Part shown: positions 3,305 through 39,800 of the stretch, piece by piece | Numbering within the stretch: position 1 is the first letter of the stretch | How the letters are laid out: each line of letters opens with the position of its first letter | Notes under the pieces: generated by a model | The model's input: only the letters and a program-made list of their open reading frames with translations | What the model was told of the DNA's origin: nothing | Database searches by the model: none | Source of the DNA: Antedon bifida | Lineage: Eukaryota > Echinodermata > Crinoidea > Comatulida > Antedonidae | Assembly (NCBI GenBank): GCA_963402885.1 | Contig: OY727103.1 | Coordinates: 12,488,085-12,552,084 of the forward strand | Direction of reading: 5' to 3' | Length of the DNA: 64,000 bases | Position numbers and translations under genes: made by a program

Positions 3305-6300
3305 CTAATGTACTATAAAATTAGGCAAGTAGTTGGTTTGGACATAGTCGTCGGTCGCCGGGATTATGACGTCATTTTTGGAGCGGCGGCGTTCATACGC
3401 GACGACGACATTAAACTCGTCTTCTTCTTCGTGTACTTCTGGTTCTTGTGACGTCAGTTCTTTACTAGAGTCACGTGACGTCGTGTGTTCTTGAGTGGTG
3501 TTTCTTCCAACTTGTCGATAGCCTGTACTTAGTCTAATTGGATTCAGGTCATCAAATGTTTCACACGATTCCGTTTGTTGCGGAGGAGGAGGAGCCGATG
3601 ACTTATATTCAGCCATAACCGAAGAAAACTACAAACAAGAGACAACAGTTACTTACTGCAGTAAAGACAATACTTAAGGAATGTTGTCACAGCATATAAT
3701 ATTTTGGTGGTTATAAAGAAAAACAAAATCCCAAAGAACAAACATATTCATGTTTGAACTTTATTCTGCGCATGTGCATTATGTTTCTAAGTTCACAGAA
3801 AGTCTTTTCGACTTGACATGCTGCGTAGTCGCGGCGAGCGTCGTAAAAACAAAAAAGGTTGCTAGTGGTTAAGAGCATGCTTACCCAGTGTGGTAGATGA
3901 AATCGACGTCTATGCTCAAACACACGAAGGAACTTAACTACAGCGACTGAGGCGAACAGGATGACGACGACAGCACATGTGAACAGAGTGTGCGCCAACG
4001 ACCAAGACGACGACGCAGTGACGTCAGCAACTCTCAAATAGTCTATAAACACAAAGTTACATTTATATTATACAGTGTTTTATTACGGTTTATGCTGTAT
4101 ATATTTCAAATGTTTGTTTGTAACTGAAGTCACACGAAAGACTTGTCGATTCTCTGTAGATACATATTGTATCACATGTGATGCCTGTATCGTATCCAAT
4201 AACCTATACAGGCTCCATGGTGACACTCAGCCGACTGAAACAGTGCAACACACACCATTAACATATCCTGCAGTAGGCCATGGTTTGGTATTGAAGCAAA
4301 GATAGTTGATTGCATCAAGGACCTGGATGTGACGCAGGTGGTAATAAAATTACGTAATAACAATTTGTATTTTACCATAATAAATGTTTTAAAAACTAAC
4401 CGTTGATTATGATAAAAATGTACGTCATCAATTAATGTTAAAGTTAAAATTGAAAAGCAGCTGCAATGCCGCTTACATAGAGGGATGAGAACAAGAGAGG
4501 GCGATCGGTCACATTACATAACATGACATTAAATAACATTAATGTTGCACATTAATTCACCTTTGACCTGCTGAGTAGCATCATGTTCATCATCTGCAAC
4601 ATGAGATTGTGTATAAATATTGGTGACGTCATTAATCAGACTAATCGTTCCGTCATCTCTTAATTGAAACTTCCTCGTGGAGGGCGGTGCAGGACTTGTT
4701 GTTCCCGAAAATACAGAAGTGACATGTGCCATGTACACTGCTTCTGGTTCTAGAGAAATGTCATTCACGTAGTATGTATTTGTCGGCTCTGGCGTATACA
4801 ATTCATCAATCTATTGATCAAAAACAAGACGAAAATGTTGGTAAAAATAATGTCATAAATAATGTTGATTCATCGGTTGATAATATCCTAACGTGAACGG
4901 CCGCCAATTTAAATTCAAAAGTAGGCCTATGAACTAGACACTATTTTAAAAATCGGCTGGGGATAGATTAAATAATCAGTTTAATAATCAATTAATAATA
5001 TAATAATAATGCTCTATACCTATACTAAAGCTCTGTCTACACTATCAAACTATGTGATACTAAAATGTGATATGCCCATATATGGACATGATGATTTCAT
5101 ATCACTACCATATTTGGGCATATCCCACTTTGTCAAACTAGTTTGATAGTGTAGACAGAGCTTTAGGCCTACCTGTAATCCTTCTGGGCCCATAATGATT
5201 ATGTTTGCTTCTAGAAGAGATACCAAGTTCAATTCTTCATTGTCGACGCGCATTGGGACGTCAGTGTCACCAACCAAATAAGGTGTTGTTGGAAACAACA
5301 AGGTAAACACCAATGTATCGTTGTTGATCAAACTAATGTTGTTGATATCCGGAGCTCCAATGATACCTGCAGTGCATTTAACACAAATATAAATGATATT
5401 GTGTTTCAATATTGTAAATACTGGTTATATCTTTTTATTAGTGTTTTTAACTGGTTCACTCATAAGCCAGAATTGGCTGCTGCTATTGTAGTAATCAAGA
5501 GTGTGATTAAATAAATTAATAAATAAAATAAATGTGAAAGCAATCAAGTAGTTTCAATCACACCGCCAGCGAATCAAAAAGTGTACGCGCGCGTACACAA
5601 TTCTGATAATTACTACGCCTTTTATGCGCACAACATTCAAGTTGTGTTTTTTTTCATGTCACTGACAATTTGACATCATACTTTCGGTTTTTGTTTACAA
5701 AAAAATAAGCTCCATCTTCTTTGTTGCTTAAAAGTACACATAAGTTTTAAGTAGCAACTTTTTTTTCCTTTATCTTTCGCACCTGTTTCTCTGTATTTGT
5801 TTAGAATCATCTTATTATTGCTTTTAATTACATCGGAATGCACGATTTTAGAATGATGTCTCCGCGGCACTTATTGGTTTCACTGCGGAAGTCGAAAGGA
5901 ACTATTCAAACGCAATTATCCATAAATAAAAAGTACAAATCATCATTACATATTAGTATCATTTACAGGTTATGTTGAAGACTTCTTTTTAATAACGATA
6001 AAAACAGAACAAGGCCAAGGACAATCCGATAATATGTTACGTTTAGCGGGCACAACATTTTAAATGTTGCCTCTTCGTTTTTTTAAACATTATTTAAACA
6101 TGTGACTCCAAAAAATGTGTGCTCCTTTGACAATGTAGGCGGATATAAGACAGCTTACCAATATATGACAAGACCAAATGAAAAATCTAATCTAAAAAGC
6201 TTTAGGCCTACCGAAGTACCTAAGTGTAGATTGTGTGCTAAGCACACAAACTTACCATGTTTTACTGGATTGTGTTCGGCAGCTTCAACCCATTCACTGA

Positions 6301-7109
6301 ATATTCTATTTTGGCTGTAGTACGTCCTCACTCGTGCGAAGATCGGAGCTTGCATCGCAATGTACTCAGCGTCCTCCATCTGTATTTTACAAATTGTTGT
6401 TGATATGTTCTGACACATCTTTTCTATTTTCCATGGCCTGAATTAAAATAACAGTTGTAACATTTAAGCTTGTTAATTATAGGACGCAACGCAAGGACAA
6501 CGCGCGACGCAACGACAACGCGCAGCGCAAGGACAAACGCACATCGCAATGACAACGCGCAACACACTGACAAACGCGTAATACAATGACAAACGCGCAG
6601 CAGCGCAAGTGAGTTGACCAATGACTCGACAAGCCACACTTCGGATGATTATAATCACGTCGTGAAGAGTATAAAACCCGATATTTACCCAAATTTCTCG
6701 CTATTCCTACTTTGGACGGTGTACGTGAGTGTAGCGTTGGTCACTTTTGGTCCGTCCCATGCCATCGTGGTGGACAGGTCATGTGTCACAACAGTCACAT
6801 TATAAGGCTCATAAATACCTTGCAAAATAAACATTATTAAATAAAAATAAAATATTGAAAGACGTAAATAACAAAAAAATTGCCTATTATGGTAATACTA
6901 AGGTAATTGGTTAGTACGTGCGTGGCAAGTCATCTTAATTTCGCACATACCTAAAGCCCTATTACAAACTAGTCACAGTTAAAACAATATATTTCATCCT
7001 ATAATTATTATTAAATTAATTTAATAACATTTGGCGACATACCTTTAATTCTTTTGACAGATACAGACAGTGTAATACAGAGAATAACAACTCTAGTGGT
7101 TCCATGCAT
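3305..7109 (-). CDS. Class II cytokine receptor (interferon/IL-10 receptor family)
   Basis: Seven coding exons (7043-7109, 6689-6818, 6256-6437, 5173-5366, 4561-4810, 3885-4042, 3305-3628) encode 434 residues. Exon 1 is a signal peptide starting MHGTTRVVILCITL. Exons 2-3 form fibronectin-III-like domain D1 (residues 23-126), with YTVQSR, PWKIEKMC, then TTICKI and PIFARVRTYY followed by FSEWVEAAEH. This matches the family pattern YTVQY, W..C..I..T.C, Y.ARVR and S.W. Exons 4-5 form D2 (127 to about 245), opening with IIGAPDINN, the place of the family's T.IGPP hinge, then LEPEAVYMAHVTSV. Exon 6 holds the membrane span (about 289-310) followed by basic residues. Exon 7 is a 107-residue tail with several tyrosines. 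Intron phases are 1-2-1-0-1-0, the arrangement known for vertebrate class II receptors. D2 has no cysteine, unlike most vertebrate members. By family knowledge it would sit at the plasma membrane, pair with a second chain and signal through JAK/STAT. The ligand cannot be inferred. Confidence 0.85.
5027..5165. repeat. Family B inverted-repeat element in receptor intron 4
   Basis: The outer arms AAAGCTCTGTCTACACTATC and its reverse complement enclose an imperfect palindrome with ATATGGACATGATG in the middle. The element ends about seven bases inside the intron from the splice donor of receptor exon 4 (exon edge at 5173). It looks like a non-autonomous DNA transposon (MITE) of about 139 bp. Confidence 0.75.
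6470..6605. repeat. Degenerate short tandem repeat in receptor intron 2
   Basis: Loose repeats of CGCAAGGACAACGCG and CGCAGCGCAAGGACAAACGC units of about 13-20 bases run between exon 3 (ends 6437) and exon 2 (begins 6689). They resemble the arm of a family A element and probably arose from one by local duplication. They create several overlapping open frames that are not genes. Confidence 0.5.
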
Positions 7110-8309: not shown

Positions 8310-11300
8310 TTACAAGCCGCCGAGCACAGCACTATCACTTTCATCATTGTTTTGGAATTCATAATTACAGAACGGTGTATCGTCTTTGTCGTGGTTCACG
8401 TCCGGTAAATTGACGCCGTGATCTTTGTTGATATACGAACGAGGTAACCGGTTACTGTGAATAAAATAGTAAGTGAAATAACTATTAAACTCCAATACAC
8501 GTGCCAACAGCTATTAAACGTACATCAACACACGCGCCAACAGCTAATTGACGCACACCAAAACACGCGTCAACAAGTATTAAACGCATACCAACACACG
8601 CTCCAAAAGCTATTAAACGCACACCATCACACACGCCAACAACTATAAAAACGCACACCAACACACGCGCCAACAACCTTTAAACGCACACCAACACACG
8701 CACCAACAACCATTAAACGCATACCAACACACGCGCCAACAACCATAAAACGTAAACACTCGCGTCACAGAAATATCATCTCTGTCATGGTAATCATCAT
8801 TTTTAAATCATCACCAGAATTCACCTCCCTCCAATTAATTCCACAATATATTTGCTTTCATACCGTTCATTTTTCTTCCTAATTATTAAGATGGCGGCAA
8901 CAATAATGATGAACAAGATCAGAACAATAACTATTATTACTAGTCCTACAACCACCGCTGAGTTATCTGAATCTGCAATGATAAACAATACAAAATGTCA
9001 AACTATACTATTACTAAACTATTTCTTGATAAAGTTCCTACTTGGACTCGCAATGCAGTAAGTAAATTGACCAATCACAACACACAATGGATCATTCGAA
9101 CTGGTCGCTTGTGATTGGTCAACTCACTTGTGTTGCGAGTCTGCTGAGTGGAAACGAACCATAATTTGAATATTTCAAATTTATGTTGATGGGCCTATAG
9201 AACGACGTATTATATTATTACTTACCGTTGTTGTCACCTCGATAAGTATCGACATTTGGTGGTTTCTTTTCATCAGGCTTTTCTGTGACCTTTTCAGTGA
9301 CCTTTTCAGTTTTCTTCGTCACTGGTGGTACTTTTTTAGTAGGAGCAGGTTTAATTTTAATTTCTACAATAATAATAATAAGAATGAGAAAATGCGATGA
9401 ATAGTAAAGGTGTATTATATCGATGAGTACGGGAACCATTGAACTATCACGGCGATCACCAATAGAGGGGGTAGTAGTGTTTTTTGCTGCTATCACAAAT
9501 TGTTGAAAATCAACTTTTGTTATTTATTTACCTATACCTTACTAAATTAATTAGTTTAAAAGCAAGTAGTGACCTATCTATGATGAGTTGCAATAAATAC
9601 TAGTTTAACTAAGTAATACATAGATAATAAGGTGTATTGGAAGGAAAATAGATTATTTTTCCTATCGGGGAGTACGGGAACCATTGAACTATTAATGTGA
9701 TTAACAATAGAGGGGGTAGTTGTGTTTTTTACTCCGATCATAATTTTTGACGATCTATTTTCTTTTTAATATTGACCTACAGTTTATCGTATTACATTAA
9801 TTTGTTTAACAGCAATCAATGGTCTATCCATAAAGAGGTGCTTGGATACTAGTATTGACGCTTTTTTTCATAAATAAAATGTGTATACTTTATGTTGAGG
9901 AAATTGATTTACTTTCATAAGTACGGGGGAAAATATATGATTTCTATTTTAATAGAGAATTAAAACAGAATGGATCTTAAGCTGGTTTATTTCTGAAGAA
10001 TAATATGAATAAAGAAGAGTTAATCTCACGTTGACAAGAAGGCGGTTGTCCCTTCCAGACGCCGCCTGCACTGCAGATCATATAGCCTCTCGTCTTGGAG
10101 TTATCTTCATAGCCGTCTTGGCAGTCGTAAAACACAACGGAGCTGAACGGATGTGACGTGTCCACTGAACGCACCTTTGCGAACGATATCTCAGGAGGTT
10201 TGTAACAAATAATTGCTAAAAGAAAAGTTTACAAATATTTACTCTTGTCAAAGTTTCGAGGTTTAAGTGATTTCACCATTTTATTTGGACCCCAATTGAA
10301 ACTAATTCTTTTTTTTAAGGATTAATTGGGTTGTCCTGAATTCATCATCAAATGTTTTTCCTTTGTTTTTCTCTCATGTTTTATCATTTGACTGTTTTTA
10401 TTTATGATGTATGAGATGGATTCGAAATAAAACAAACAAACAAACATATCAATCACTTTCGAAATTCCTGAAATTTGAAAAGCTTACTTTTGCATGTTGG
10501 TAGAGGATTGTCCCATTGGCAATCGTCTGTACACGTCAGTGTATCAGCACCAATCAGCTCAAAGCCATCATTACACGTGATCTTTAGCGTATCTCCCAAT
10601 TCGTACTCGTCTTCATTTGGTAATACGTCACCATTACAAATATCACCAGGATACATACACGCTCCTGTACAAACAAAATACTTTGTTTGAATGTTGATTT
10701 AAAGGATACGACATTGACATTGACTGTACCAAGTTACCAATGCTCTGTCTACACTATCAAACTTTATGTGACTAAGATTATAATATTTGGTCAAACTTTA
10801 GACGATCGAGATAATAATTTAAACCGTTACACTTACTTCTGCAATAAACTCCAGCTTCGTCCGCTTGTCTGGAGCAGGGTGACGGGCCTAGCCGTTTATT
10901 ACACTCCCGTAGGTGCGTCTCTGATCCCGAACATTTCACTGTATTCCACACCAATTCTGTCAGGCTAGGAAATTCGCCTTTAACAGCTGACCTTGCCGCG
11001 CAAAAGCCGACTTCACGACAAGCGACCTTTGCTGCATCAATGTCCCAGCCATTGCCGCATATTCCACCCCATCTACCCCCGACAAGCACCTCTACTCGCC
11101 CTCCTATTTCGTCTTCGCCGTTGTTCACCAACCTCACCTCTGGAGTTAAAGAAAACCCGTTACATATAAGATTGCTTTAAATAAAAATAATATAGTGCCA
11201 TGCGCGCATTGCTGGAGAAGTGTGCATTTGTGATTTGACCAATCACAAACCGTTCTTTGCTTGGATGAATATCCACATCGGGTGAATATCCACGTACGTC

Positions 11301-14300
11301 ATAAAAATAATGGTTTCTTACCGGCACACTCGACTTGTACTATGGTATCCGAGTCACATGTACCGTTCGTGTACGCGCAGTTGGTCAGAGTGGACTCAGC
11401 GCCCGTGCATTCTATATTGCGTATGTTGGTAGGATAGTTCGCTCGTGGCACGCCGGAGTAGCTTGTCGCTGTCGTGTTGAACAGTTGACTGCATACGATA
11501 TTGGCTGCTGTCATGTTGAAGCCTTTCAAACACACTCCAGTCCAATTACCATTCTGTAAAACGTCTACGATTCCACTCATACTGTCCGTGTTTGCATTAT
11601 CGGAACGAAGACGAATGTCTGAAATAAGAAACGTGTACACATACTTGGGAATAGATTTGGCTGTTTTGCGTTGGAAACGATAACTGCACGTGGCCTTTTT
11701 TTCAAGGAGCCTACGTCTACAGGGCGCCGTTATGTTGATAAAATTAGTCCCGAACGGCGCCCCGTACACGCCTATATTTTGCAATACACACCTGTACACA
11801 TGACACCTGCATCTTCATTGTGATTACAATTATGGGTTGTCCATCCAAGATGAGTGCAATCATGTAGATTATCTTCCGAGCCAGTGCACTGCACACCATC
11901 CAACATAATCGGACCTATGCCGCTCCCATATGCACCGCAACACCGCGACGCTTTCAGCGTTTTCGGTAAATAGCCGCCAAGTTGGCGACAGACGACCACT
12001 GCGTCGTTGTAGTCCCAACCGTCGTCACACACCGTTCCCCATTCGCCACTATGATACACTTCAACACGGCCTTCTAGAGGATTAGGTCCATCAACCAGTC
12101 GAACGGGAAGACCTAAATATGAAACAATATCAACGCATTTTCAACTGAAACTAATTGAAAACTGAAAAACGATCCTATTTAGTCAAGTTTGGTCCCCACT
12201 TTTTGACGCAACGCATCGCAAGTAATTTGACCAATCACGACGCGATGAACATCCAAACCGTCGCTTGCGATTGGTCAACTCACTTGCGTCGAGCCTACGT
12301 CGTTGCGTTAAGTTTTAAGTTTTAATTGTACAATATATATATTATAACGTACGGTATTTATTTTAATATTCAGTGTTTTTATCATAAGCCTACATTAATG
12401 TTAGTAAGTATCAACATTGTACCTCGTTCACATTCAATCATGATATCTTGGTCGTGTGAACAGGAGGTAAATCCTCCCCATTGATCGTGCTTGCAGTCAT
12501 CCAGCGTTCCTTCCGTCCCGTTACAACCTAAATTCGACACCAGTATCGGTCCGTCAGATTTTGGCGGGATTTCGTCGCTTCGTAAAGTGATTCGTTTGAC
12601 GTTGTAACCACCCATCATACTGCAGATTACGCGCGCGTCGTTTATGTCGTATCCACGGTTACAGATCGTTCCCCATTCGTTGTTATGGAACACTTCCACG
12701 CGCCCGATTAGTTCAGTTGCTCCGCCCACGATACGAATTGGTCCTATTGTAAAAAGAAAAAAAGTACATACACATTTAAAATGGAAAGAGTGAATGAAAT
12801 GCAAAGCTTTTCAGTTCGCCAAAACAAACAACTTATGGCGCATTACGCAATACGCAGTATAAATACTGTATTATCAATCGTTAAGACAGTGTTTGTACTG
12901 GGCCACCTTCGAAAATGAAAAAATCGATGTAAACAACAAGAGTGGAAATTAGAGGTGTTTTAGGGATTTAGGAGAAATCAGATTGGTAAAAAGTAATTTA
13001 ATAAACAAATAAACAAAATGTTTACGTTTGCATATGACGCCGACATCTTCTTCGTGGCGGCAGTTGTGCTTTCCCCATCCGTTGTGACGACATAGCTCTA
13101 TGGAATCTTCTGTGCCTAAACACGCCAGGTCATCCAGTATGATATTGCCACTACCGGGGCCAAAGCTCTTGCAACACTGGCTAGAATCCGTTCCTTGGTA
13201 GCCTAGCATTGTACAGATTACTTTAGCATCCGTGATACCAAAGCTATCGTCGCAAATGGTGCCCCATTCACCGTCGTGGAATATTTCAACTCGACCCTCA
13301 AGTGCGTTATTTCCGTTAGCTAGACGCACAAGTAATTCTTCGTTTCCTGTAAAACAATCAAACATAACCTGATCTAAATTGCTAGTTCCATACTGGGTTC
13401 CTTATTTAAGTAATCGGACACTTTCTAGTGAAACTAAAAGATCGTACGAGGAAAGCAAGAATTTGTACAAGTTTTTTGATTGGTGGGATAAACCAATCAT
13501 CCGCGTGTGATTCCGCGTTGCGCATACATCGTTGTGTTGCGCGCGTCCAAGTGGGAAAACGGCGTAAAGTGGTGACCAATTAGGATTGATTTTTAGCATG
13601 GTCTTTCCTTGCCTTTTATATCTCTGTTTCGTATTTTAAATAAATCAAATAATATTGAAAATTAAAAATAAAACACGTACCACAATATTCACCGGGAGCT
13701 CCAATATCACATATTTCATACCTAGCATCAGGGTCTGTGGTGTAGCACCACGCATTGGTGTACTGATCTGGGTTACGGCAGAAATTGTGATCTCCCAGGC
13801 CCCCGTTAGGATAGCGTTCAGGCGTCCTCTCGTGCTGGTGAGGGTACTGTGACGTCCATCTCTGACACGTCTTACCGGTAATGGTTGTATTTACCGAGCC
13901 TCGGTAGTCTGATCCATCGTGCCTATTGGAACATTCTGATGATGATAAAAACAAGTAGTAATTATTGTATGACATTTTAAGTTCGTCTGTATGTCATATT
14001 CCCTGTATCAGTTTGAAGCAGCGCGTTGATACTTAAGCACGCACTATTCTACGCCTACCTATATGGTCTATACATACCTCCACAGCCTACCTATATGGTC
14101 TATACATACCTCCACAGCCTACCTATATGGTCTATACATACCTCCACAGCCTACCTATATGGTCTATACATACCTCCACAGCCTACCTATATGGTCTATA
14201 CATACCTCCACAGCCTACCTATATGGTCTATACATACCTCCACAGCCTAGAAGTTCAAATCGGAGACTAATTTGCCCCCTCCACGTCATCGAATTCATCC

Positions 14301-17300
14301 GAATAAATCTTCCCATTACCGGTTTATTAAAGTAGTTCGTTACAACAGAATTATCGTCTGTATTTCCTACAAATACCTACAAAATAAATAAAACGCTGCA
14401 GAATAAATGAAGTTATGGTCTTTGGTTTGATTGATTACAAATTGTAGGGAGATTTGCGACGACCGACTCAGTCGTCGACGACATAGGAGCAAGTTCGTTC
14501 ATGTCAACTGATGTGTCGTCGGCTGGACATAAAAACAATCAAAAAACTTTGTCGAGGTACACAGCAAGGAAAAACTTCTTCGCACGCGCACAACGAATCA
14601 ATATGACGTAGTTAGGTCGTTGCAAATCGAAAGTTCCTCCTCACAATAAGCAGAGATTATTTGAAATACCACCAGACAAATACAAATACCACCAGACAAA
14701 TACAAATACCTCCAGACAAATACAAATACTTATTCAACACAAAACATTTCAAACAAATTCAAAGTTATATAAAAATAAAAGCACTCACCATACTGGAACT
14801 AGATTTGCGCACATCAGCCCAAGTATTTCCATCTTGGCTATACTGCAACCGGAATTGTCGAACGTATTCTCCAGAACGATTCCTGCCCTGTGTTTGTATG
14901 CCAGACACTATGTGAGGCACTCTGAGGTCCACCTTGATCCACTGCATACTGGTTGAGAACACTGGTTTCCAGGCAACGCCACTACCGCCAGGTACGTCTA
15001 AATTCAGTCGTGCCTTTGAGGGCGCGTATAACGGAGAGGCAAACGACGACGCACTTATTCGAATATCATCAATATTTCTATTTTCCATTCCTAGAGGATC
15101 TCTACAATCTATAAATAGATCAAGTTTATCCACAATATTAAGGGTATTTCACACCTGTACTGTGTCATTTTGTTATGCTTAGCTAGGCTAGCTCGGTGTA
15201 ATCAGGAGATATTAATTACACTCTTCCCTGGTGGTAGAATATCATTTACTTACTTAAATACTTAATACTTACGTTCACTAATGTCGGTGGACGGTGTCGG
15301 AATAAACCCACCACCAGTAGTCAGCACGGTTGCGTTTACTTCTATACCATCTAAGAAAATACATAATCTTGTTTTTGTGAGTGGCGACAATTGAACCGGA
15401 TTGATTAGTTACCTCGGTTATCATATATGCACATAATATAATGAGAATAATTTGAACATACAAAATATCAATGCACTAAACAATGGCTGGTTTGTAGAGA
15501 GGCAAACTGATTGACCTCAACTGACCTGAAGTATCGCACACAACTCCCGCGTCTTCGTGGTGACCACAGTTGTGATCTCCCCAATCAGGGTGTCGACACT
15601 CATCTAGACGAGATTCTGCTCCAGTACAGAGAAGGTTGTCTAAATGTATCGCGCCTGTTCCTTGGCCAAACTTCCTTACTGGTGTGTCCTGATTGGCTCC
15701 GCGGTATCCCAGTTGCCGGCAGACGACATTAGCTTCTTCTGTGCCAAAGTCGTCATCACACACGGTGCCCCATGTTCCAGAGTAGAAGATTTCCAAACGT
15801 CCTTCGCCTTCGTTAACTCCGTCTTTTAGGCGAATGTTTCCAGATTCTGTAAAACAATATAGAGAAATTGATATGGTGTATCTTATAGACACGGAATGTT
15901 TTCATAAGATGACTGTATGATGAATGTAGCACAATGGCTGGCTCAAATATGGCTCAATTATGGCTTATGTTAAGTTTTAAAAAAAATGCATATATACCTC
16001 TACATTGTATTGTCGCAACCTGTCCACTATTACATGTAAAATTACCCCATGATGCAACGGTGCAATTCGCTAGAATGGTTTCATTTCCTGAACACTTCAA
16101 TCCTTTCATAAAGACGGCAGATTCCTGAGGAACACTTCCGTATTGAGCAGGCTCCGTCATGTGCAGCTGATAGCAGAACACCTTGGCAGCATTGTTATCA
16201 AAATCTTCATAGCAGATATTTCCCCACTGGCCTTCGTGTAAAGTTTCGATCACTCCGTCCCAGCCAGACGTAAGGTTCCCTTGAGAGATTCGGATGTCTA
16301 CAAGGTAAATGGTAGATGATCAGAATAACAATAATATACACTACAGCAGTCTCTAAAGCATGATTCACACTAATGATAATGATGATCCTGTCAATTGTAT
16401 AGCAAAATATAAGAAAATTAATGAAAAAAGGAGTAATACAGAATTCATATATGTAAAAATGTTACTTATGAACTGTAACGACATTTACAAGTTAAATAAT
16501 ACGATTTTATGTAATATGAGATAATATGAATGTGAATAAAAGTGGTGTTTGCGCCACAAAAGAGAGAAAAAAAAGAAGAGACGCAACGCCGTACGCTCAA
16601 GTCATTTAACCAATCACTATCAATCACGTTTTATTGTATCGCCTTATGGCTCAAATGATATAGAGCAGCAGCATCACAGAGATGGCTATTATAAACGAAA
16701 AACCAACATTATTCCTCGCGCTAGAGGCTACTTCAATTTCAAGACTTCTTGATAATATCTAACCGGCTATTGCAAGTCAACTAGATACAATTCTATGTGT
16801 ATAATATATTCTATAATACAAGCTAACTATACCTGTGCATTCTATGCCAGAATTACGTCAAGGCTGCAAGCTATCACTTGATAATATCTAACCGACAATT
16901 GCAAGTCAGCTAGATACAATTATATGTGTATTAAATATTATATCATACAAGCTTACTATACCTGTGCATTCTACGCCAGAATCCTCATGATGACCACAGT
17001 TATGAGTTCCCCAACCACTGTGAACACAATCTTCGATTCTGTTTTCCACTCCCGTGCAACTGAGGTTGTCCAGATGAATTACTCCTGTTCCTGTCCCGTA
17101 AACGGCGCAGCATTTTGCTGAATTACTTTGTTTGACTGCATAGTTACCAAGATGGCGACATGCAACAACTGCATCGAAAAAGTCCCATCCGTCGTCACAG
17201 ATTGTGCCCCACTGTCCGTTATAAAACAGCTCAACTCGGCCTTCTAAATGGTTGTTACCGTTCACCAGTCGGATTTTAGTAGCACCTAAAAATACATATA

Positions 17301-22587: not shown

Positions 22588-22683
22588 CTTGTTTCCACTA
22601 GACGCAACGCAAGGACGTACACGCAACGCAAGCATTTTGACCAATCAGAAACATAGGATTATTTGAACTGTCAATTGTGATTG
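22588..22683. repeat. Left half of a family A element interrupted by a LINE
   Basis: CCTTGTTTCCACTAGACGCA, then ACGCAACGCAAGCATTTTGA and CCAATCAGAAA run normally up to TCAATTGTGATTG, the centre of the palindrome. There the sequence changes into LINE DNA. The missing right half resumes at 24780. Confidence 0.8.
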
Positions 22684-24778
22684 TACTGTATAAAAGGTTC
22701 ATAAAACACCCTACTGTAAAAAACAAAAATGCGTATAAAGAATTTAAAAAAGCTTTTGCACGCACGTGCAAATTCGCCAAAAAGATGCATTATGAAAATC
22801 TTTTCAATCGAACAAATGGTAATATTAAAAAAACATGGAATGTTATAAATGATGTAATTGATCCGAATAAAGGAAAAACTAAAGTTCCATCTTCTTTTAC
22901 ACATAACAATGAAACTATACATGGTTGCGAAAATGTTGTAAATCACATTAATGATTATTTTATTAATGTAGGTTGTGAGGTTCGAGACAATATTGAGTCT
23001 ACTACGACAAAATATTCTGAATACCTCACAAACAAACAACGCAACTCAATGTTTTTTTGCTATGTTGATGAGGAGGAGGTACTAAAAGTTATTGAATCTC
23101 TCGATTCAAACAAAGCCCCCGGATTTGATGACATTTCAGCAAAAGTTGTAAAGGAAGTAAAATACAATATTTCAAAGCCGCTGACATATATTTTTAATTT
23201 ATCACTCCAAACTGGACTGATACCAGGGAAGTTGAAAATTTCCAAAGTAGTTCCTATACATAAAAAAGGGGACCGCCATTTGGCCTCAAACTATCGTCCC
23301 ATATCGCTGTTGCCCATTTTTTCGAAAGTTTTTGAAAAGATTATCCATAATCAATTATACAATTATCTTACAAAATTTAAAGTGTTAAGCAACAATCAAT
23401 ATGGATTTAGAAACAAACACTCAACTTCTCATGCTATGATCGACTTGGTCCATAGAATATTAAATGCATTTGAAAAAAAGGAATATGCACTTACTACCTT
23501 TATGGATTTGTCAAAAGCGTTTGACATTATCGATCACAGTATTCTGTTGAGCAAATTGGCGCATTATGGTATAAGAGGCATCGTTTTAATGTGGTTTAGA
23601 AACTATTTAAGTGGCCGCAAACAATATGTTTATGCCAATGGTAGATCATCATGTTTAAAAGACACCAATATAGGGGTGCCACAGGGCTCTGTTTTAGGAC
23701 CACTTTTGTTTTTGATTTACATCAATGATATAAGTCGAGCAAGTAGTAAAATAGATATAATTAGTTTTGCTGACGACACAACTTGTATAACAAGGGGAGA
23801 TGACCCTACAATGTTAAACCATACTATGAATATTGAACTAGAAAAAATAAACGTATGGCTTAAAGAAAATAAGCTGTTACTGAATGTCAGCAAAACTAAT
23901 TAAGTTGTTTTTAGAACTAACCAAAAGTACTTTGACAAAAACCAGTTTAAAATAAAAATGAATAATGTGTTATTACATAGAAAAGAAAATGTGACATTTC
24001 TAGGTGTAATTTTAAACGAAAATCTTAACTGGAAACATCACATATTATTAGGAAAAAAATGTCTAGGGCAACTGGTATACTTTTAAAAGTAAGAGAATTC
24101 TTTCCTCATAAAGTCCGTATTAGTCTTTATAACACCTTAGTATTACCTCGCCTTCAGTATGGTAACTTAATATGGGGAAATACATACAAGAGCACGTTAG
24201 AGGTAATACTAAAACTCCAAAAGAGAGCTGTAAAATGCATTACCTTCTCTAAATCCAAACAAGCCTCAGAGCCACTGTTTAAGAAATTAAAAATATTAAA
24301 CGTTTATGATATTTACAAAGTAAACGTCATAGGATTTATGGCAAACGTAAAATTCAATGAATTACCACATCACATTTTAAATATTTTTAATTACTGTGAC
24401 AGTATTAGGCCTACTCATAACCTCAGAACAGAAACTGAATTCGAAATTCCCTTCACAAGACTAACTTGCAGTCAACAGTTTATACACATATCTGGACCAA
24501 AATTGTGGAAAGAATTCACTTGTAATGGTGGTAATAAACCAGTTATTTTAAAGAAACAAAATAAATGTATAAAAAAACAGGTCAAAAAATACTTTTTATC
24601 ACTATATGCTCATTAACAACACGTTTTATTTAAGTTCTATATACTTGTTCTTATGTAAAAGGGTCCTACAAAAAAACGAAGCTACAGCTTTTTTATGCAG
24701 GATCCCTGTTGTCAGTTGTACTGTAATTATGATGTACTGTAATTGATGACTAAATAAATGTGGAATAAATGAAAATGT
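22684..24778 (+). mobile_element. 5'-truncated non-LTR retrotransposon (LINE) with broken reverse transcriptase
   Basis: The reverse-transcriptase part runs from about 22684 to 24616. Motifs in order are KISKVVPIHKKGD, SNYRPISLLPIFSKVFEKII, NQYGFRNKHSTSHA, TFMDLSKAFDIIDHSI, GVPQGSVLGPLLFLIYINDI and SFADDTTC, the catalytic F-ADD box. A TAA stop follows SKTN at 23901-23903, and the same frame continues afterwards with VVFRTN and VTFLGVILNENLNW. A frameshift occurs near 24050 in an A-run, and the C-terminal part (LQYGNLIWGN and on) continues in a new frame to 24616. No endonuclease domain is present, so the copy is 5' truncated. Type: jockey/CR1-like, clade not resolved. It is on the plus strand, 3' end near 24778, and looks dead. 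Confidence 0.85.
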
Positions 24779-27848: not shown

Positions 27849-30800
27849 CTAATTTTGAAAAAAGTTTTTGTGAGTGAACGATGATAGGTCTTGCAGGTCT
27901 GAGTTGGTGTCCTTTGGTTCGTTTGTGCTTTCTGTTGTTGATAACAATCCAGCTAGGCCTACAGACGTGTCAATTTGAGATGGAGACACAAACGTGTTGT
28001 CTCCTTGGGAAAGGCACGATAAACTAGAACTAGCACTGCTGTTAGGTTGTCTATGTATATGCATTGCGTTACCTAAAATGTTTGTTGAATTTGAAAAAGA
28101 ATGATTTGGTTGTGAAAATACAGATGTTGGCATGGAAACACCGCCAGAGTATGGCTGCCACCATGAACTTTGACCTGACGTCGACGATGATGATGCAGAG
28201 GTCTGATTGCTTTCAGCCCAGTAGTTGGCAGATACTCCTGAGGTCTGTGGAACCACACCAGATGTCTGAGGTGGAACCACACCAGATGTCTGTTTGTCGA
28301 TGTTAAAACGGTTGGCAGAATTATTTGAACAATTAGCAGTGAGTGGAACGACCTGAGCACTTGGCAGTAAACAGGTCGAGGATTTTGGTGTACTCTGTGT
28401 AACTACTGGGTTACTATTACCCAATGTTGACCCAATTGGTGCTGCTGTCATTATAGGTTTCCACCGTTGACCTGTGACCTGGTTCTGACCTGTGACCTGG
28501 TTCTGGCCTGTGGCCTGATCTGACAAGTCCACCAACTGAGTGCCAGAGGCTGTTGCAGACTGCGGCACTTCAGTATTATCTCTGATTGCAAGAATTCTGC
28601 CATCATTTGTGCGCAAGTACATCCCTTTCTGTGTCTTTATAAACGTCACATTCTCTCCAGCTCTGATAACCTGTGGTTGCGATGTTGTTAATGTGGTGGT
28701 GCTTGGCAAGACAATGTCTGAAAGACATCAATTATAAAAATAATACAAACATATATCAAATTGAATATAATCTAACCTTTTTAATATTCTTTTTTAATTT
28801 TTAAAATTGTTTAGTTGAAATTAAAGCATGTATGTTACATTAATGGTATGTTACATTAATGCATGTCTGCTATGTTAAAGCATGTACAGTATGTTACATT
28901 AATGCATGTCTGCTATGTTAAAGTATGTAACATTTAAGCATGTCTGCTATGTTAAAGCATACAGAATGTTACATTTAAGCATGTATGTTACATTAATGTA
29001 TGTAACTATGTTACATTAATGTATGTTCATTAAAAGCATGTTTATTTCCAAGAATCTGCATTCTGTATGACTAATGCATTACTTGTTTACAAGCAAACTG
29101 AAACACAATTCTAAAGAGAAATACAAATAGAAACATGCACAGTCACAATGTTTTCTTAGTGTTATTGTACTTTTAGGTTTCTATAAAAGTGCAAAGATTA
29201 CAATTGAACTTAAGCCAAATGTGATAATAATTGAATCTTATTCATTCTTTGAAATCATTACTGTTCTATTCAACTCAGCTGGTCAAACTCAATTTTTCAA
29301 TTCAAAAAATATTCTTGAATATTCATTCATTATTTGAACAATATTTATCTCTAGTAGATCAGATTTTAAATTAAATTTGAGACCCAAATATAGTATTAAA
29401 AATATTATGTTCAGAGAATCGTTGAATATACTTTTGGTTTCAAAGAAAATATATCATATAGAAAGGGTGTCATTAGTTGACCCATGGGTTCGGCTGTAAT
29501 CACATCCTAACATTCTAACAATGACATTCAAAGAAATATGATAACTAGTTCAAAGGTCAAAATCAATCTATGTAATAGTAATTAAATACAAGGACTTGCG
29601 TGGGTACATTATTGTAAAACGTAATTTGACACGTTTTGTGCGGAAATAAAAACAATGAAAACTATAATGCTTAACATAGAAAAGCATAGCAAACTAGTTA
29701 GCTGACTTTCTGTCAAGTTTTTCCGATCATTTTTTGCAAAAACGGATAGTGTATACATTGACTACTAGGTTTCTTTGGGTAAACTACAGGCGGAAAAATG
29801 ATGTTAGTGATACAATTTCCAGTTGATAGTGTGCGGAGGAGATGCCGAGAGGGTTAGGTGTCGGGTTTAATGCGTGGTTCCCACTAGAGACGCAACACAA
29901 CAACGTAACGCAACGTTAGTTTTTAAAAAAAGTATGAGGGAAATGTAACCCTGTTAAATACAATTCTAAAACATTTAAATTGTAGAGGGTGGTTGTACTT
30001 AAATTGTAGAGGGTGGTTGTACTTAAATTGTAGATGGTGGTTGTACTTAAATTGTAGATGGTGGTTGTACTTACCTGTGGTGCAGACTATTCTTTGTACA
30101 GACACTCCAGCCTGCTTTAAACTCTCCATCTTATCTTGAGACGATGTCATTTGTTTATGTAGAGGTACCATTGGTATAGGAGTAGATTGCATTGGACGTA
30201 CATTGGCGACAGGCCTTGCTAATGTATGTGATGGGTATCTGAAAGAATGAATATTCAATATTATTGGGCGTAAATTGGAGTTTATAACAAACTATTCCTG
30301 ACATACTATATTCTAATAAAGCTACCATGATTTAATTCTATGAAGAACCATGATTTAAATATAGCCAATTCAATAACATTTTTTTTTTATTCAATTCACA
30401 TTTATTCAGCAATATAAATATTTACATTACAGAGATCTTACAGAGACAAGTAATCATCTGTAGTCATAAGACCCTTTAGAAAAAAACAAGTATTATTACA
30501 AAGAAAAAAACATGAAAAAAATGTTTTAAAGGTACAACAAGTTGGGAAAAAAAGAAATAAGCAAAAGTATAAAATACATAATAATATAAAACAAACTAAT
30601 ACATATGTGTGTACATTCACTTTATGTTTTAAGATAATGGAATCAAATAATTAATTTTTTAAAATGCAAGCAAAAATAAACATACTTGTTAAATACAGAG
30701 TTATTCCATGGTCCTGCCATGTTTTTAGGGAGTGGATGCGGTGCTCCTTTAGGGTAAAATGCAGCATATGACGGCCTAGAGTATGATATGTTCAACATCT

Positions 30801-33800
30801 TTTCTTCCTCATAACTTTTCTTTGCTTGTCGTTTCTCTGCTTTAGTTAGACTATTATTGCTGATATCCTCATGCAATGAATCTGTACAATGAGGAGCCTA
30901 TCAATAAAATTACAGAATACAGTATATTATTTACAGAATACAGTAAATTATTTTTCTCATCAATTTGTTTGACTCTTAAGGCCAATTTACACAGACGAGC
31001 TTTGGTGTCTATTTGGTGTCTAGTCCCTTTTCCTCCAATTAGGACAGACCACTCTCTTGTTGCACAAATGTCAAACGCTGATATTGACCAGTACACTGAA
31101 AGATGCACTGGTTTCTTGTAAGTGCACACAAGCCAGCTGATATTCTTTAATTACCTTAGATAATATATTGCTGTGTTCTTCACAGATATCTTTCAGAATG
31201 TTATCACTATACTGATGTTTCAAATGACTAAAATCTTCAAATGGTTCGTCGCTTTCGTCGTAGTCCATCAGACTCTCAACTTCTTTCTTGGTCAGACATA
31301 ATTTTGGATTTAATTCATCGACAACACGATCTATAATTGAAGAAATTAAACCAAAATTAACTAATTAAAAAGAGTATCATTTTGTTTTCACCTTTCCTGA
31401 CAAGTGGTAAGAAATATGTTTTATTCATTTAGGATTTATTAATAAAGAAATTAATTTAAAACAAACTCTGAAAAAAGCAATGCAAGCCATTATGATGTAA
31501 ATTAACAAATTAAATGATTTTCCAAGGTAGTAAGAAATATATGTTAAAACGTTAGGGTTTTAAGTTTGAAAGTTAAAGCAGACACTTAGCCAACCAATAC
31601 CAGTAACTTATATTAGCTGAGTTTGCTTTTGTCTTTGCTTATAAAACTTCATCAAGTTTATACACAGAATGTTAATTGTATCATTTATGCTTTGAAATCT
31701 AAGAACTTAGTTATGGAATGTCCAAAAAAAACTTGAGACTTGGCCAGCTAAAGGCCTGATTGTAACTTTGCTTTGCTGTAAGCTAAGACATTTCTTGCCT
31801 AGTTTTGTGGTGGCATGTCCACACACAATGAAAGCCAGGATGTGGTCTGACCCAGCATTAAGAAAGGTAAACACAATTAAACACTGGACGTTGTGTTTAT
31901 AAACAATATCCTATTGTGAATGATAACAATGCATTGTTCATTAAATGCAAATGGATGTATATATTTTAATGGCAAGGAAGTCATTTTAAAAAAAAATGCT
32001 TAGATTGTATAATCCAAATTTCCTTTAAATTTCAAACCAGTAAAGGGTAATTCCTGGTTTAAAATGTCCAAATTTCCCTGAACTTAAAACCAGTAAAGGG
32101 TAATTACAGGTTTAAAATGTCATTGTTTATTATAAAAGAAAAAACCTTTGCTTGCAGTAACATTGATATGATAACAGTGAAACAGAATGAAATAAACTCC
32201 CATTTTAAAAAGTGATGCTATAGGATTATTTTCGCAATTTTCAATGACATAGAATCTATGTAAAATTAATTTGTTCATTCTGTTGATATACAACATATTT
32301 ATTTGGGAACCATTAAAATAAAAAAATGAATTCTAACCGGAGATTCCTTGCTTAGAAATTTGTCGATCATAAATCTTCTTTTCTAATGTTTTGTCGGTAA
32401 CGAATCGATACACGTGGCATTTTTTGGTTTGTCCGTAGCGATACACCCGGCACACAGCTTGGGCGTCATGACAGGGATTCCAAGACGCATCGAAAACGAC
32501 AACTCTATTTGCACCAATCAAATTAATTCCAAGTGAACCAGCTCTGTAAATTAATAACAAAAATAAATAAGTATGCCTTAAGCTTTGTCTACACTACCAA
32601 ACTAGTTTGATAAAAAAAGTGTGATGTGCCCAAATATGGTAGTGATATGTCCAAATATAGTAGTGATATGACATCATCACATTTTTTGTCACATAAAGTT
32701 TGATAGTGTAGACAGAGCTTTAGTGAATAAGAGTGAAAGGTTAACAACACAAATTAAACAATTAAAATGAATTACCTTGTTGATAGTAGAAATAACCATT
32801 GTTGATTGTTATTGGGTTTGTTAAATTGACCAATCAATCTCTCTCGTTCAGAAGGAGGTGTACTACCATCAAGACCTGCAAAATAATTAAATGATGAATA
32901 CTTTGTATATATTGTACCTATCTCCTGTTTTAAGCTCTGTCTACACTATCAAACTAGTTTGACAAAAGTGTGATGCGCCCAAATATATTTCCATATATGG
33001 GCACATCGCATTTTTTTTGTCACATAACGTTTGATAGTGTAGACAGCTAGCTTTCACTTGTCATTATCGCTTTATTATACATTTTCACTATAAAACAGTA
33101 GAAGCACCCATTTTAAGTGTCTCCTTAATAGGGCTGTCTCCTGATTAAGGGTAGGCTGTAGTGTTAACACATATATTGCCTCTTGTTAGTTTCACAGGAA
33201 AGTGTCCCCTTGAAGGCCAATTTACACAGACGAGCGGTTACCACTCGTCTGTGTAAATTGTTCTTAATATGTCCCAAAGGAGCGGTTTTACTAAAGTTTA
33301 ATTTAGTTTAACAGCAGTTGACAATATTTAATAGTAAACTTACGAAAATAGGAATGGTTTCTTTGCCATTTGGTAGGCATGTCATCTGCTGCGTTTGGTG
33401 GTCTTGGTATAGTGTGTTGACCTAGGAACTTCTCAATTAATGATAGTGTACCAAGACTTTGACTAAACACAAGTAACTTGTCTCCCAGCTTGATTGAATC
33501 CTCTACAATCTTCATCAACAGGATCATTTTACTGCCGTAAGACAACTTTAATGGTTGGTAGTTTTTCATTATGTCTCTCGCCTTAACAAACAAAAAAGAA
33601 CAAATTTGACCATCAGAGCAGTAGAAAGCATGTGGCAGACTATGCGCTCGCCACAACCACCTCCCACACTATCCCTGGCACAGCATGTATACTATGCGCT
33701 CGCCACAGCCACCTCCCACCCCACACTATTCCTGGCACAGCACGTATACTATGCGCTCGCCACAGCCACCTCCCACCCCACACTATTCCTGGCACAGCAC

Positions 33801-36800
33801 GTATACTATGCGCTCGCCACAACCACCTCCCACCCCACACTATTCCTGGCACAGCACGTATACTTTTAAGACATCTTTGCCTTGTCTGTTTAAAACCTCT
33901 CGTTATGGCTCTGATAATTTTAAGAAGAAAGTCATGAAGCTTTTGATTTGTGACATATTGTGTCAAATGTCAAACGGTATTGAAGTGTCCAAATGACCCT
34001 GCATACACACAATGAAATACTTCTTCTTGGGGTCCTTACAAAAGTAACTCCTAAAAAACTTTTCAAAACTTTGTTATTTAAAAATCGAAGACAGTCAGGT
34101 CTCGGGTCCATTCTATTGTAGCCACAGATTGACTTCTTCATCAGTACTTCTATGAATGGATGATTAGTTGGGAACACGAACACTAGTTGATTATACCCAG
34201 TACCGTTTTGATCGTACGATCATTTGGGAAACCACCTCACGTCGAATCCCATATTAACAAGATAAATGCAGCTTACCCATTCAAATGATATAATGTGATT
34301 AACTTTATCCACATATGAGACGTCATCTGTGTTGCTGTCCATTTTACTGCAGGATGCTACATCCTTACCAGCTACAGAATTCTTCTTGGCGCTCTTCCTT
34401 GCTTTTGTGTTGATATCTGGGATGTCGAGGTCAGCCATTGAGTCCGTCTTTTGAAGGAGGACATCGTGGAGGATGTCAGGATGGTTCCATATCTAGAACG
34501 AGAAAGATGAAGATTAATCAGTGAGAACAACTTGCAATTTAAAAGTAGTTTTTGAAAGTTGGAAAGCAGATGTAGGCAATCATTTGTTTGTAAATCCACA
34601 CACCTTTTTAACTAAGGCTGTTTTTCCGCAGCCATACCAAAATAATCGGTTTATATAATTTTAACCAATCAGATATTTATTTTCTGGTTTTTCTTTTTTT
34701 ATTGTTTTAGTGTCTGTGTATACTACTGTACTTTGTGCAATTTTATTTATGTATGAACAGTATTGGTTACACTATGATATAACAACAACATTTCATAAAA
34801 TTCTAAAATCTTAAATCAACCTACCTTACAAAGGACAGAGAAGGCTTTAATAGGGTTGGATGTGCACCACCCACCAGCACCCATCTCTGTGAAATACTGC
34901 ATAAACTTATGATAGAGGCCTTGCTGGAATGGAGTCAGCCGCACAAATATCACATGTTCCTCTTTAGAAGGCAACGTTGATGTAAGGACTTGGAAGCCAC
35001 GTCGTTGGACAAAACCCTCTAGAAGACTGTGCAGGACGTGCGCTCTATAACGCATTAACTTAACATCCTGGAGAATAAAAAACCATGTTACGTTTGTTTC
35101 TACTGTATAATAATAAAGTATAGATTATGAATACTTATATGCTTGGTCCTCCTCTACAGGTGACTCTCTACAGGGGACACATTTGAGCTGGCCTAATATG
35201 TCTAGTTTTCCAAAAATGCTGTTTTTAATCGTAAAAAAGCATTTAGGACCTTTTGGACATCCAAAGACAGTTTTGGTTTTCTGGTATTAGGAGGGTTTGG
35301 TACTGATTACACAACCTACCTTAGGAGTACTGTCAGAACATTGGCCATTCAGAATTGGCCTTTCAAATAAATTAGAAAATTCATGTTTGGTTCCAAGGAA
35401 GTTAGGCCGTACAAAGTCTACCATACACCAATACTCTAGCAGGTTATTCTGTAGTGGGTAGCCAGTCAACACAACACGCCTCCTACAACAACAAAGGGCA
35501 GAAGTGATTATTATCATTCATACAATCTTTATTTAGGATAAAACATAAAAGAACAATTTTGCCAACTTCATTATAAAATCAAAAGAGAAGTATGATAATA
35601 TGAAACAAACTCGTAAAAGAATCATAGTAGCCTACCTTACTTTGTTATATATATAGTGGAATGGTATAAATAATGGCATGAAGTGAATTATATTATTTGT
35701 AACATTCCAAGAATATAAACATTATTATTTACAAAATTACTATTGAACAACTGTTCAATAGTGCGTATTATTGCACAGCATTGCATGTGACCCACAAATG
35801 TCCAATCAAATGACAGGAATTTAGTTAGGTGTTATATAATATTATATATCAAACTCATTAGTGGTAAAATGAGAACATCAATATAACCTGATTAAAGATA
35901 ATTGTGGAGCAATGATTATGCATTGACAAAGCAAACGTAAATGAACTTAGAGCATGTCTTACCGTGTGCGTATGTTCTTTAGTGTTTGTGATGTACTTGC
36001 ATGACTATTCTTAATCCTATGTCCTTCATCACAAATAACAAGATCTGGTCCTGGGTTACTTAAAGCCATATACACCTCTGCAACATAAACATATTTACCA
36101 TAGACAATCTACGCCTTTCTAGACCTAAAAAGGTTGTTGTTGACAGTGAGTTTTCTGTCTTTGAAAACTAAACTATAGAATGATATCCTCTTGGTAATTC
36201 GCCAGGCTCCTAGTTCTCGTGTTTTTAAGAAACACTTTAAATGACTTTGGGGAACAGTTGATGTGGAATACCCAGACAAATAACTTAATATAAGCCGCGC
36301 ATTACATTATAAAATTATTAAAATGAACTGTAGAGTAAAATCCTATAGAAATGTAGAGTAAAAATTTCAAATCACAAGCACAAAAAAAAAGACACAAAAA
36401 AAATATAATAAATATATAAAATACAAAAATTTTATCAAAAAGTTAAAAAGATGAAGACTAACTTGACAAAATGTTTGTTATTTTGTCCTCTTCCTCCAGA
36501 TCAATAACCATCGGTCCTTTCTTTGTTGTAGTCTTCTTTTTTTGTTTCTTTCTTCTCTCTATGCCGTTGGGATCTCCCCGTCTGAATGATAATAACCTGT
36601 ACATCTCATAACCCATCAGCAACACTCCTCCCGTTTCATGCCACTTCTCTATAAAAATAAAATCATTTATTTGGTGTTAAACTCTGTATGCATGGTAGTG
36701 ATATGCCCTAATATGGTACTGATATGACATCATCATGTCAATATATGGGCACATCACAAAGTTTGATAGTGTACTGTAGACAGAGCTTTACATCGCGATA

Positions 36801-39800
36801 ACAAATATTTTTCTGATGCTAAATAAATATTGCTTACCAATAAGCTTGCCTCTGGACTGTGTTGTTTTGTGAGTGTCATTTAAAACATAAATTGGAAATT
36901 GACGATAAACAATATGGTTTTTTGCGGACTGATCTTCGTCAGATGTGTTGTCATCTTTTGACGACGAACTAGCCACATTATTGTCCTTTTTTGGTAGCCA
37001 CAGATCAAACTCTGCGACCCAGTTCTGTAACGTGTTAATAGGCACGATACACAGCACACTCTTAGCACATGTGTGTGTTAGAAATACTGAGATAAAAGAG
37101 ATGCACTGAAGGGTTTTGCCAAGCCCCATGCTGTGAGCCAGTATACAGCCAAACCCGGTACTTGTTCGATGACGTTCAATTGATTCCACTAAATTGTCGT
37201 ACAAAAATCGTATACCACCAATCTAAAAAATAAATAATTCAGATTTAATTTATAACAAATGTAACATTTAGTATTTACCCGTACAATATTAAAATCCATA
37301 CACATTCAACAGCAGTTAACTTGTCAATTACAGGATGGATAAACTATATCATGCTTATAATTAATAAGGAGTAACATGCATGACACTTGGTTAGGATCGA
37401 ACCCTAGACCTTGGAATTGCAAGGCAAGCATGATAACCACCATTGTACAGCTCCACTGCAATATACATCTTTAATAGAAATAATCCAATTTTACTATAAT
37501 TATTGTTTCTTACTATTATAAGGTAAACTCAAGTTTTTAAGTACCGTCTTATTATCTTCCATACTGGATTGGAAGGCATGTCAACAACCAAGCTACAGCT
37601 AGCTCCATTACAATATACTACATAAACTCAAGTCTATTTAAGTACCATCTTATTATCTTATCCATACCTGATGTGTTTTCATGATCTTTGCTATTTGTGT
37701 GGGTACAAATATATCAGGTTCACTCGGGGGATGACCAACATTGACGAGAATTCTACCTTGCGCATCACGTACGTTGAACTGATCATTGGTGTGGATACCA
37801 GCCACCAGTGTTTTCGTATCCTCCGCATTATCATCACTTAATACGGTAACACCTTCATCATCATCTGAACTTAATATCTCTATTACTTCTGTAAGAGTAA
37901 ATAGTACAAATAATGAATGTTTATGAGTGTAATGGTACAAATCATGGCATGAGGTGAATGATGAAAGGTTATATTTAGTATTGTAACAGATGACACCCTT
38001 TCTATGCATCTAATAGAGGCTGGATTTTGCTGCTAAAATTTAGTATATGCAAGTCTATTTAAGTTTATTCATAGTGTACTTCCACAATCCAACCTACATC
38101 AACGTTCGTGTGCAAATTTATTTTTTAGGATATTGCAGGTTTTTGTGGAAGTTGCTATTGTTAATTTGTTGGTGAATTGTTTTTTCATTTTGTTTTGTAT
38201 GATTTGTATATGGATGTACTATCGAAAATAAAGGATATGAATGAATGAATAGTGTGTTGTATTTATACTCATGTGTGAAATAACAGGTAGGTACACATTC
38301 TTGACAGAGAATAAAATAAAACAGGATAAATGTGTTCATTGCCGTGCCATACCTGGAACTGGTTTTTTCAAACTTGTTGGCTTTTCTTTATTTTCATCTT
38401 CGCTACTGTCGTCTAAAATAATCAACTCTTCTGGTTGCGTTTTGCTTGAGCTGATCACAGCAGGCGCTGTGCTTTCTACAACAAGAGCAATACATATATT
38501 GATATCTGAAGGAATATATTTAAAATACTGTACCATTTCACTGCCTCTCTTACCAAGCTTGTAAGGGCATGTTTTCATATTTCATTCACATTTATTTGAA
38601 ACAGTCATAACATTTAAAGGGTAACAATAATAGGAGCTGTTTCAGGGAAATACAAGTAAAAGATGTATAATTATGACAGAGTCTTAAAATATGATTAATA
38701 TATACAGCAGCAGAACTCCTTGCTTGGGATGTGTATGAGGAGACAAAGCACCTCTGGATTGAGACAGGATATCTCATATGGTGGCTGGAAGAACTTTCAT
38801 GACAATTTACAACTCCACTCCCTAAGACCTGTAATACGACTTTGTTTATGTATTTATGTCTTGCGAACAGGATTGCCACCATTAAGAAGGATAGTGAATG
38901 AATTCGCTTATGGTTATCCTTGGCAATTTGCCTAAATATATTTAAAACAAAATATAACAGTACCTGTGACAGCAGCAGCAGGTGGCAGTGGTAGACTAAG
39001 GAAGCCTCTTGCTTTTTGTTCTTCCAGTCGTTGTTTTCTTTCAGCTTCTTCTTTCTGCGCTGCTACAGTCTCCTCATCTAAGGCATCTGCTTTTAGCAAC
39101 TTCCTGATAAACAAACAATGTTACGATTGTAACATATAAAGACAATATGGTATATAAGTCAAACAAACTAAGCACTGATAGAACAAAATGTTATCTGAAC
39201 GTCTGGTTTAATTAAGCAAAACTAGACTTATTAACCAGCCACAACAAAGCAGTATTGTCTAATTAAGCAAAACTAGACTTTTTGAACAGCCACAACACAG
39301 TACCTGATGTTTCTTCTCTGAGATGCTGGTTTATTGGCCCTTTTCTTTTTTTTCTTAGGTTCACCATTTTTGTCTTTTTTTGTTTTGTCACTACTTGATG
39401 GATCGGTCTTCTTTTTTCGTTTTCTTTTTACTTTGGGTTTAATTTCATTGTTTTCTTGTGCATCATCTGGAATGCTAACAAGTGAAGTCAGATAATCTGC
39501 CTTGGACTCGGAATTACCAGCTGCAAAAAAATGAAGAGAATAGGTTAGCAATTGTGTCAACAAATATTCTAATACAGTTACTGCAGTAACTACATATTTT
39601 TACTGCAGTAAGGTATTATTTAGTTTGTATAATAATGAGAGTCAAGCAAAAGTAATTGCATAAACAGTAAGTACTGTAGTTACTGCAGTAACTGCAGAAG
39701 TGTTTTCCCTTATGAGTGCATACATTAGACTATTCAGAAAGAGTAGGGCATTGTCCATTAATGTACTGACCATGACTGGCTGACAAAAAAAATTATTATT

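Follow-up and report, generated by a model that had tools for sequence, protein, structure and literature searches.

Gene structure at the receptor locus

The window, by which we mean the whole 64,000-nucleotide stretch of DNA analyzed here (C16:12488085-12552084), lies in an assembly of the crinoid Antedon bifida that spans 315.6 Mb in 27 contigs. On the minus strand of the window, from 7109 to 3305, is a gene (gene 1) with seven coding exons that encodes a 434-residue type I membrane protein. Its features are as follows.

7043..7109, minus strand: exon 1, start codon and signal peptide (residues 1-22); phase 1 at its end
6689..6818, minus strand: exon 2, first half of domain 1; phase 2 at its end; exon-level match to PF01108
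6256..6437, minus strand: exon 3, remainder of domain 1, including cysteines 74 and 82; phase 1 at its end
5173..5366, minus strand: exon 4, first half of domain 2; phase 0 at its end; within the IL-20RA alignment
5024..5165, no strand assigned: palindromic repeat of 142 bp inside intron 4, which recurs elsewhere in the genome
4561..4810, minus strand: exon 5, remainder of domain 2, including LEPEAVY, and the linker; phase 1 at its end
3885..4042, minus strand: exon 6, membrane span and juxtamembrane segment; phase 0 at its end
3305..3628, minus strand: exon 7, 107-residue cytoplasmic tail containing five tyrosines, and stop codon
3207..3212, minus strand: possible polyadenylation signal (AATAAA), 92 bases past the stop codon

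The introns of gene 1 follow the GT-AG rule in all six cases and have the phases 1-2-1-0-1-0, and the ATG is preceded, seven codons upstream, by an in-frame TAG. As a check on whether the phases had been chosen to fit, GT and AG sites were scored within open frames in the stretches around the borders, using a simple consensus splice-site matrix that was not trained on the A. bifida genome. At 11 of the 12 borders, the site used outscores every other in its open frame; the exon 2 donor is the one border with a tie, and its rival, a phase 1 donor, does not pair with the acceptor of exon 3. The listed sites scoring at least 3 yield four phase-consistent chains, which differ only at introns 2 and 3. 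Intron 3 is in phase 1 in all four, and the best chain is 1-2-1-0-1-0. Except for intron 2, where the best-scoring pair agrees with the series, the splice sites leave no choice of phase. According to hydropathy, the signal peptide has a hydrophobic core at residues 7-16, and a single membrane span lies at about residues 294-313. The tyrosines of the tail are found at positions 335, 364, 405, 422, and 427. The seven exons, 434 residues, consensus splice sites, and phase series proposed in an earlier note on this DNA were thereby reproduced, and the signal peptide and single span that it described are both supported by hydropathy.

Several other features were recognized by eye in the window. On the same strand and 5' of gene 1, frames between 8821 and 18758 (minus) resemble a large scavenger-type receptor with SRCR repeats, a kringle (13619-13993), an F5/8C-like domain (14768-15148), and a membrane span (8821-8997). 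Two long frames on the plus strand (22641-24613) are similar to a LINE-type reverse transcriptase, and exon-like frames on the minus strand (27852-37222) resemble a SNF2-type helicase of the ARIP4/RAD54L2 kind.

Family assignment through domain 1

Gene 1 matches the Pfam model Tissue_fac (PF01108) with an E-value of 2.5e-11. Since the score is 43.8 bits against a cut-off of 27, this match is not due to chance. The sole other Pfam model found for gene 1 at E <=10 is a glucanotransferase model (0.056, below its cut-off). When the protein was compared to the PDB using phmmer, all three chains returned were class II receptors: IL-20RA (E 2.1e-9, with an alignment of residues 23-239 that runs across both domains), IFNGR1 (0.009), and IL-22RA1 (0.17). 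Domain 1 alone retrieves IL-20RA (4.4e-5) and IFNAR1 (7.7e-4). Among the six PDB matches of this domain at E <=10, three are class II receptors, and the others are a ribonuclease inhibitor and two Tie2 chains (E 0.07-1.2). These matches bear out the assignment to the class II cytokine receptor family made in the earlier note. The Pfam comparison that the same note had proposed divides between the two halves of the protein, as PF01108 was found in domain 1 and PF09294 was not found in domain 2.

A search of 5.8 billion proteins produced 3540 candidates, none of them at E <=1.

A second receptor gene in the same genome

Through a search of the genome with PF01108, eight matches were obtained at E <=10, among them exon 2 of gene 1 and an exon on contig C12. 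The latter surfaced at a lowered threshold and reads GISKPRNVTIKTID. Six more frames were found around it, and the best donors of the first six exons have the phases 1, 2, 1, 0, 1, and 0. The resulting gene 2 (G000:C12:2684145-2679501, loci L033 and L034) is on the minus strand and encodes a 468-residue spliced protein. In this model, the frames were picked by eye, the acceptors of exons 2, 3, 4, and 7 were selected to make the phases agree and are not the top-scoring ones in frame, and the donor used for exon 3 is the second best, the best donor having an equal phase. The first four exons measure 67, 133, 179, and 197 nucleotides in gene 2 and 67, 130, 182, and 194 in gene 1. The two proteins are 26% identical over 179 residues (E 2e-12, for a single comparison).

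Like gene 1, gene 2 matches PF01108 (E 7.1e-12). Its matches to fn3 (17.7 bits, cut-off 25) and to PF09294 (14.7 bits, cut-off 21) are both below cut-off. Against the PDB, the top five of its eight matches are class II receptors (IL-20RA, IFNAR1, and three IFNLR1 entries), and the last three are unrelated (E 1.8 to 7). A profile built from the two crinoid genes alone detects IL-20RA over both domains (E 1.8e-11) and IFNAR1 (2.5e-7), with class II receptors making up 12 of its 16 PDB matches at E <=10, including the top 10.

The genes for vertebrate class II receptors are typically built with two exons per domain and the phase series 1-2-1-0-1-0. The exon plan that the earlier note had recognized in gene 1 is found in both crinoid genes.

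The other six PF01108 matches in the genome were rejected. The top three are long GTPase-like frames with ordinary FN3 domains; two of these were run in Pfam, and both prefer PF00041. The last three appear by eye to be plain FN3. The genome search with PF09294 gave two matches, both of which are below cut-off and better described as fn3. No third receptor emerged when the genome was searched with gene 1 or with 313 residues out of the 468 in gene 2, in searches that respond poorly to pieces the size of an exon: the first recovered nothing but gene 1 itself, and the second reached gene 1 only at an E-value of 1.24.

A divergent second domain

Domain 2 of gene 1 has no match to PF09294 or PF00041 in Pfam, and when used alone it retrieves no chain from the PDB. 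A domain 2 profile of the two genes retrieves four PDB chains: fibronectin (0.46), two chains of an unrelated enzyme (0.97), and IFNAR1 (0.98). In hhalign, comparison of domain 2 with four vertebrate domain 2 sequences gave a probability of 12.8% for a 26-column stretch around LEP..Y. Three vertebrate receptors run as controls score 85-100 bits on PF09294, so the crinoid domain 2 is truly divergent, and the result is not that of a weak model. The cysteine pair of domain 2, which is aligned in all four of the vertebrate sequences, is absent from both crinoid genes.

Some features favor a second FN3 domain. Against IL-20RA, domain 1 alone scores 26.9 bits and the whole gene 1 protein 40.3 bits; the domain 2 segment starts with an IGxP-type linker, as in IL-20RA; and a phase 0 intron divides this segment, in line with the family plan. 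Given that the gene otherwise keeps to that plan, the PF09294 match and the cysteine pair are taken to be typical of the family rather than defining for it. With respect to the two FN3-like halves that had been claimed for this gene, the first is upheld, and the evidence for the second is weak.

Relation to known class II receptors

IL-20RA (PDB 4doh, chain R) is the best PDB match of both crinoid genes. In domain 1, it shares with them the TYTVQ motif, a tryptophan before the cysteine pair, the pattern C-x-N-I-x4-C, and R-V-R. The cysteine pair itself (C-x7-C after the tryptophan) is formed by cysteines 74 and 82 in both genes and is aligned with that of IL-20RA. In domain 2, IL-20RA scores 89.5 bits on PF09294 and has the second cysteine pair, whereas the crinoid proteins have neither. 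IFNAR1, IFNLR1, and IFNGR1 are the next best PDB matches of gene 1, gene 2, or the joint profile, and are weaker than IL-20RA. No orthology of gene 1 to any single vertebrate receptor is claimed.

Alternative readings and source of the sequence

Gene 1 could in principle encode an ordinary FN3 receptor that is outside the cytokine receptor family and resembles it in one domain. The PF01108 cut-off is also passed by plain FN3 domains elsewhere in this genome, as found by profile search of the contigs, and is therefore unspecific in A. bifida. This reading would likewise account for a domain 2 that is not recognized as class II, and for the weak fn3 match of gene 2 noted above. Domain 1 of gene 1, however, behaves differently from such domains: of the three plain FN3 domains over the cut-off, the two that were tested score 45-49 bits with PF00041, which is higher than their 32-33 bits with PF01108, whereas domain 1 of gene 1 scores 41.6 bits with PF01108 and has no PF00041 match. 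In addition, the best PDB matches are class II receptors, and in gene 1 and gene 2 alike the intron phases follow the family series at all six positions. An ordinary FN3 receptor is thus an unlikely explanation. The three loci that come first in the PF01108 search (L001, L002, and L003, on C15 and C7) consist of long frames in which FN3 domains are combined with a GTPase-like part, and their FN3 domains score over the PF01108 cut-off.

Two other kinds of receptor have to be weighed. The Pfam model matched by gene 1 is named after tissue factor, and tissue factor is said, in one review, to be expressed in horseshoe crabs (PMC10242999), so that a protease-binding receptor of this type with no JAK signaling might be envisaged. 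As in gene 1, exon 1 of tissue factor encodes the signal and exons 2-5 the extracellular part; yet its gene is divided into six exons and the protein has a very short cytoplasmic portion of 21 residues (PMC10242999), as opposed to the seven exons and 107 residues found here. Tissue factor is also missing from the PDB matches of gene 1 and of the two-gene profile. This reading is highly improbable. Slighter still is the chance that gene 1 is a class I cytokine receptor of the gp130/Domeless type. Class I receptors similar to IL6R have been reported from a sea urchin (PMC13203501), and the class I pattern, as outlined in PMC1963337, comprises a WSXWS motif and a four-cysteine domain 1. Both crinoid proteins, on the other hand, are without WSXWS, have only two cysteines in domain 1, which are eight residues apart, and show no class I Pfam match. 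Least probable of all is contamination by vertebrate DNA, for which no supporting point was found. Gene 1 is embedded in a contig of 19.35 Mb, and the palindromic repeat (~142 bp) in its intron 4 has further copies in the window (at 27.6, 32.6-33.1, 36.7, and 44.0-44.2 kb) and in the portions of contigs C1, C7, C12, and C13 that were retrieved. Since the contig is of this size and the intron 4 repeat is native to the genome, a vertebrate contaminant is very unlikely, and the presence of a second, divergent gene on another contig is further evidence against it.

The mitochondrial contig (C27, 15,844 bp) is informative as to the organism itself. It carries cox1, as well as other mitochondrial genes identified by reading of the frames, and these are open under the echinoderm code. 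AGA and AGG, which are stop codons in the vertebrate mitochondrial code, occur inside all four of the correctly framed genes counted (cox1 left out). In the gene order, nad4L is flanked by nad4 and nad5, and the orientation of nad1 and nad2 is opposite to that of cox1. The main coding strand contains 26.4% A, 11.4% C, 15.4% G, and 46.7% T. This is close to the composition given for the 15,887-bp mitochondrial genome of the feather star Comaster schlegelii (A 26.73, C 11.38, G 15.89, T 46.00%; PMC8820819). The code, gene order, and composition are in accord with the non-vertebrate source that had been suspected from the window, and they point to an echinoderm that is almost certainly a crinoid.

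Taken with the evidence above, it is very likely that gene 1 encodes a divergent class II (interferon/IL-10-type) cytokine receptor chain in an echinoderm. To call it a previously undescribed system, as the earlier note did, is an overstatement; the receptor type is already known, and gene 1 is a homologue of it in an animal branch new to the family.

Candidate signaling components and a proposed mode of action

The genome also contains candidate partners for such a receptor. A JAK-like gene on contig C13 (from 22866414) has a FERM_F1 match over cut-off, a FERM_F2 match under cut-off, an SH2 domain, and two successive tyrosine-kinase sets, as in a JAK. A 96-residue frame between the kinase sets is without a match, and the only match to Jak1_Phl in the genome is below cut-off and located within this gene. 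A STAT on contig C1 is represented by two STAT DNA-binding frames. With respect to ligands, the genome profile search, which was run without a positive control, detected no member of the interferon family, and the single match to the IL-10 family (E 2.46, below cut-off, likewise without a positive control) was set aside, its frame being unlike a cytokine.

The gene 1 product is probably one chain of a JAK-coupled receptor, for which the C12 gene product is a candidate partner chain. By homology, domains 1 and 2 would form a bent ligand-binding module, and an unknown helical cytokine could join the gene 1 chain to its partner, possibly the C12 product. A JAK held at the juxtamembrane segment may then phosphorylate the tail tyrosines, which would in turn recruit STAT. 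Cytokine binding, chain pairing, and JAK-STAT signaling are each inferred here from homology with known receptors.

Age of the family and implications

It has been hypothesized that type I interferons are new to vertebrates, clear homologues not having been identified in invertebrates (PMC10210618). A study of JAK-STAT evolution describes the purple sea urchin as having no apparent cytokine receptor signaling system (PMC3296744). Other publications lean in the opposite direction, namely those on the sea urchin class I receptors and horseshoe crab tissue factor cited above and one that reports an interferon-like protein from an oyster (PMC8218723). A search of the open-license literature, which covered mostly titles and the beginnings of abstracts, turned up no description of a class II cytokine receptor from an echinoderm. 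It is quite possible that class II receptor genes in other echinoderms carry automatic annotations.

An echinoderm gene with a matching exon plan suggests that the receptor family is older than vertebrates, and the class II exon plan itself probably is. Both the family and the plan would then have been present in the common ancestor of echinoderms and chordates. More tentatively, and with somewhat less than even confidence, we propose that this ancestor already had a working two-chain JAK-STAT receptor of class II, and that crinoids use a divergent, hidden helical cytokine related to the interferons and IL-10. If there was such an ancestral receptor and there is such a hidden ligand, the interferon/IL-10 axis would not be a vertebrate invention.

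Gene 1 represents a known receptor kind in an unexpected branch, and its second domain is unusual. The extracellular domains would provide concrete bait for finding the ligand, and the age of the interferon/IL-10 receptor family is now directly testable in other deuterostome genomes. The presence of at least two class II-type receptor genes together with a JAK-like gene and a STAT would move the receptor side of this axis to the base of the deuterostomes.
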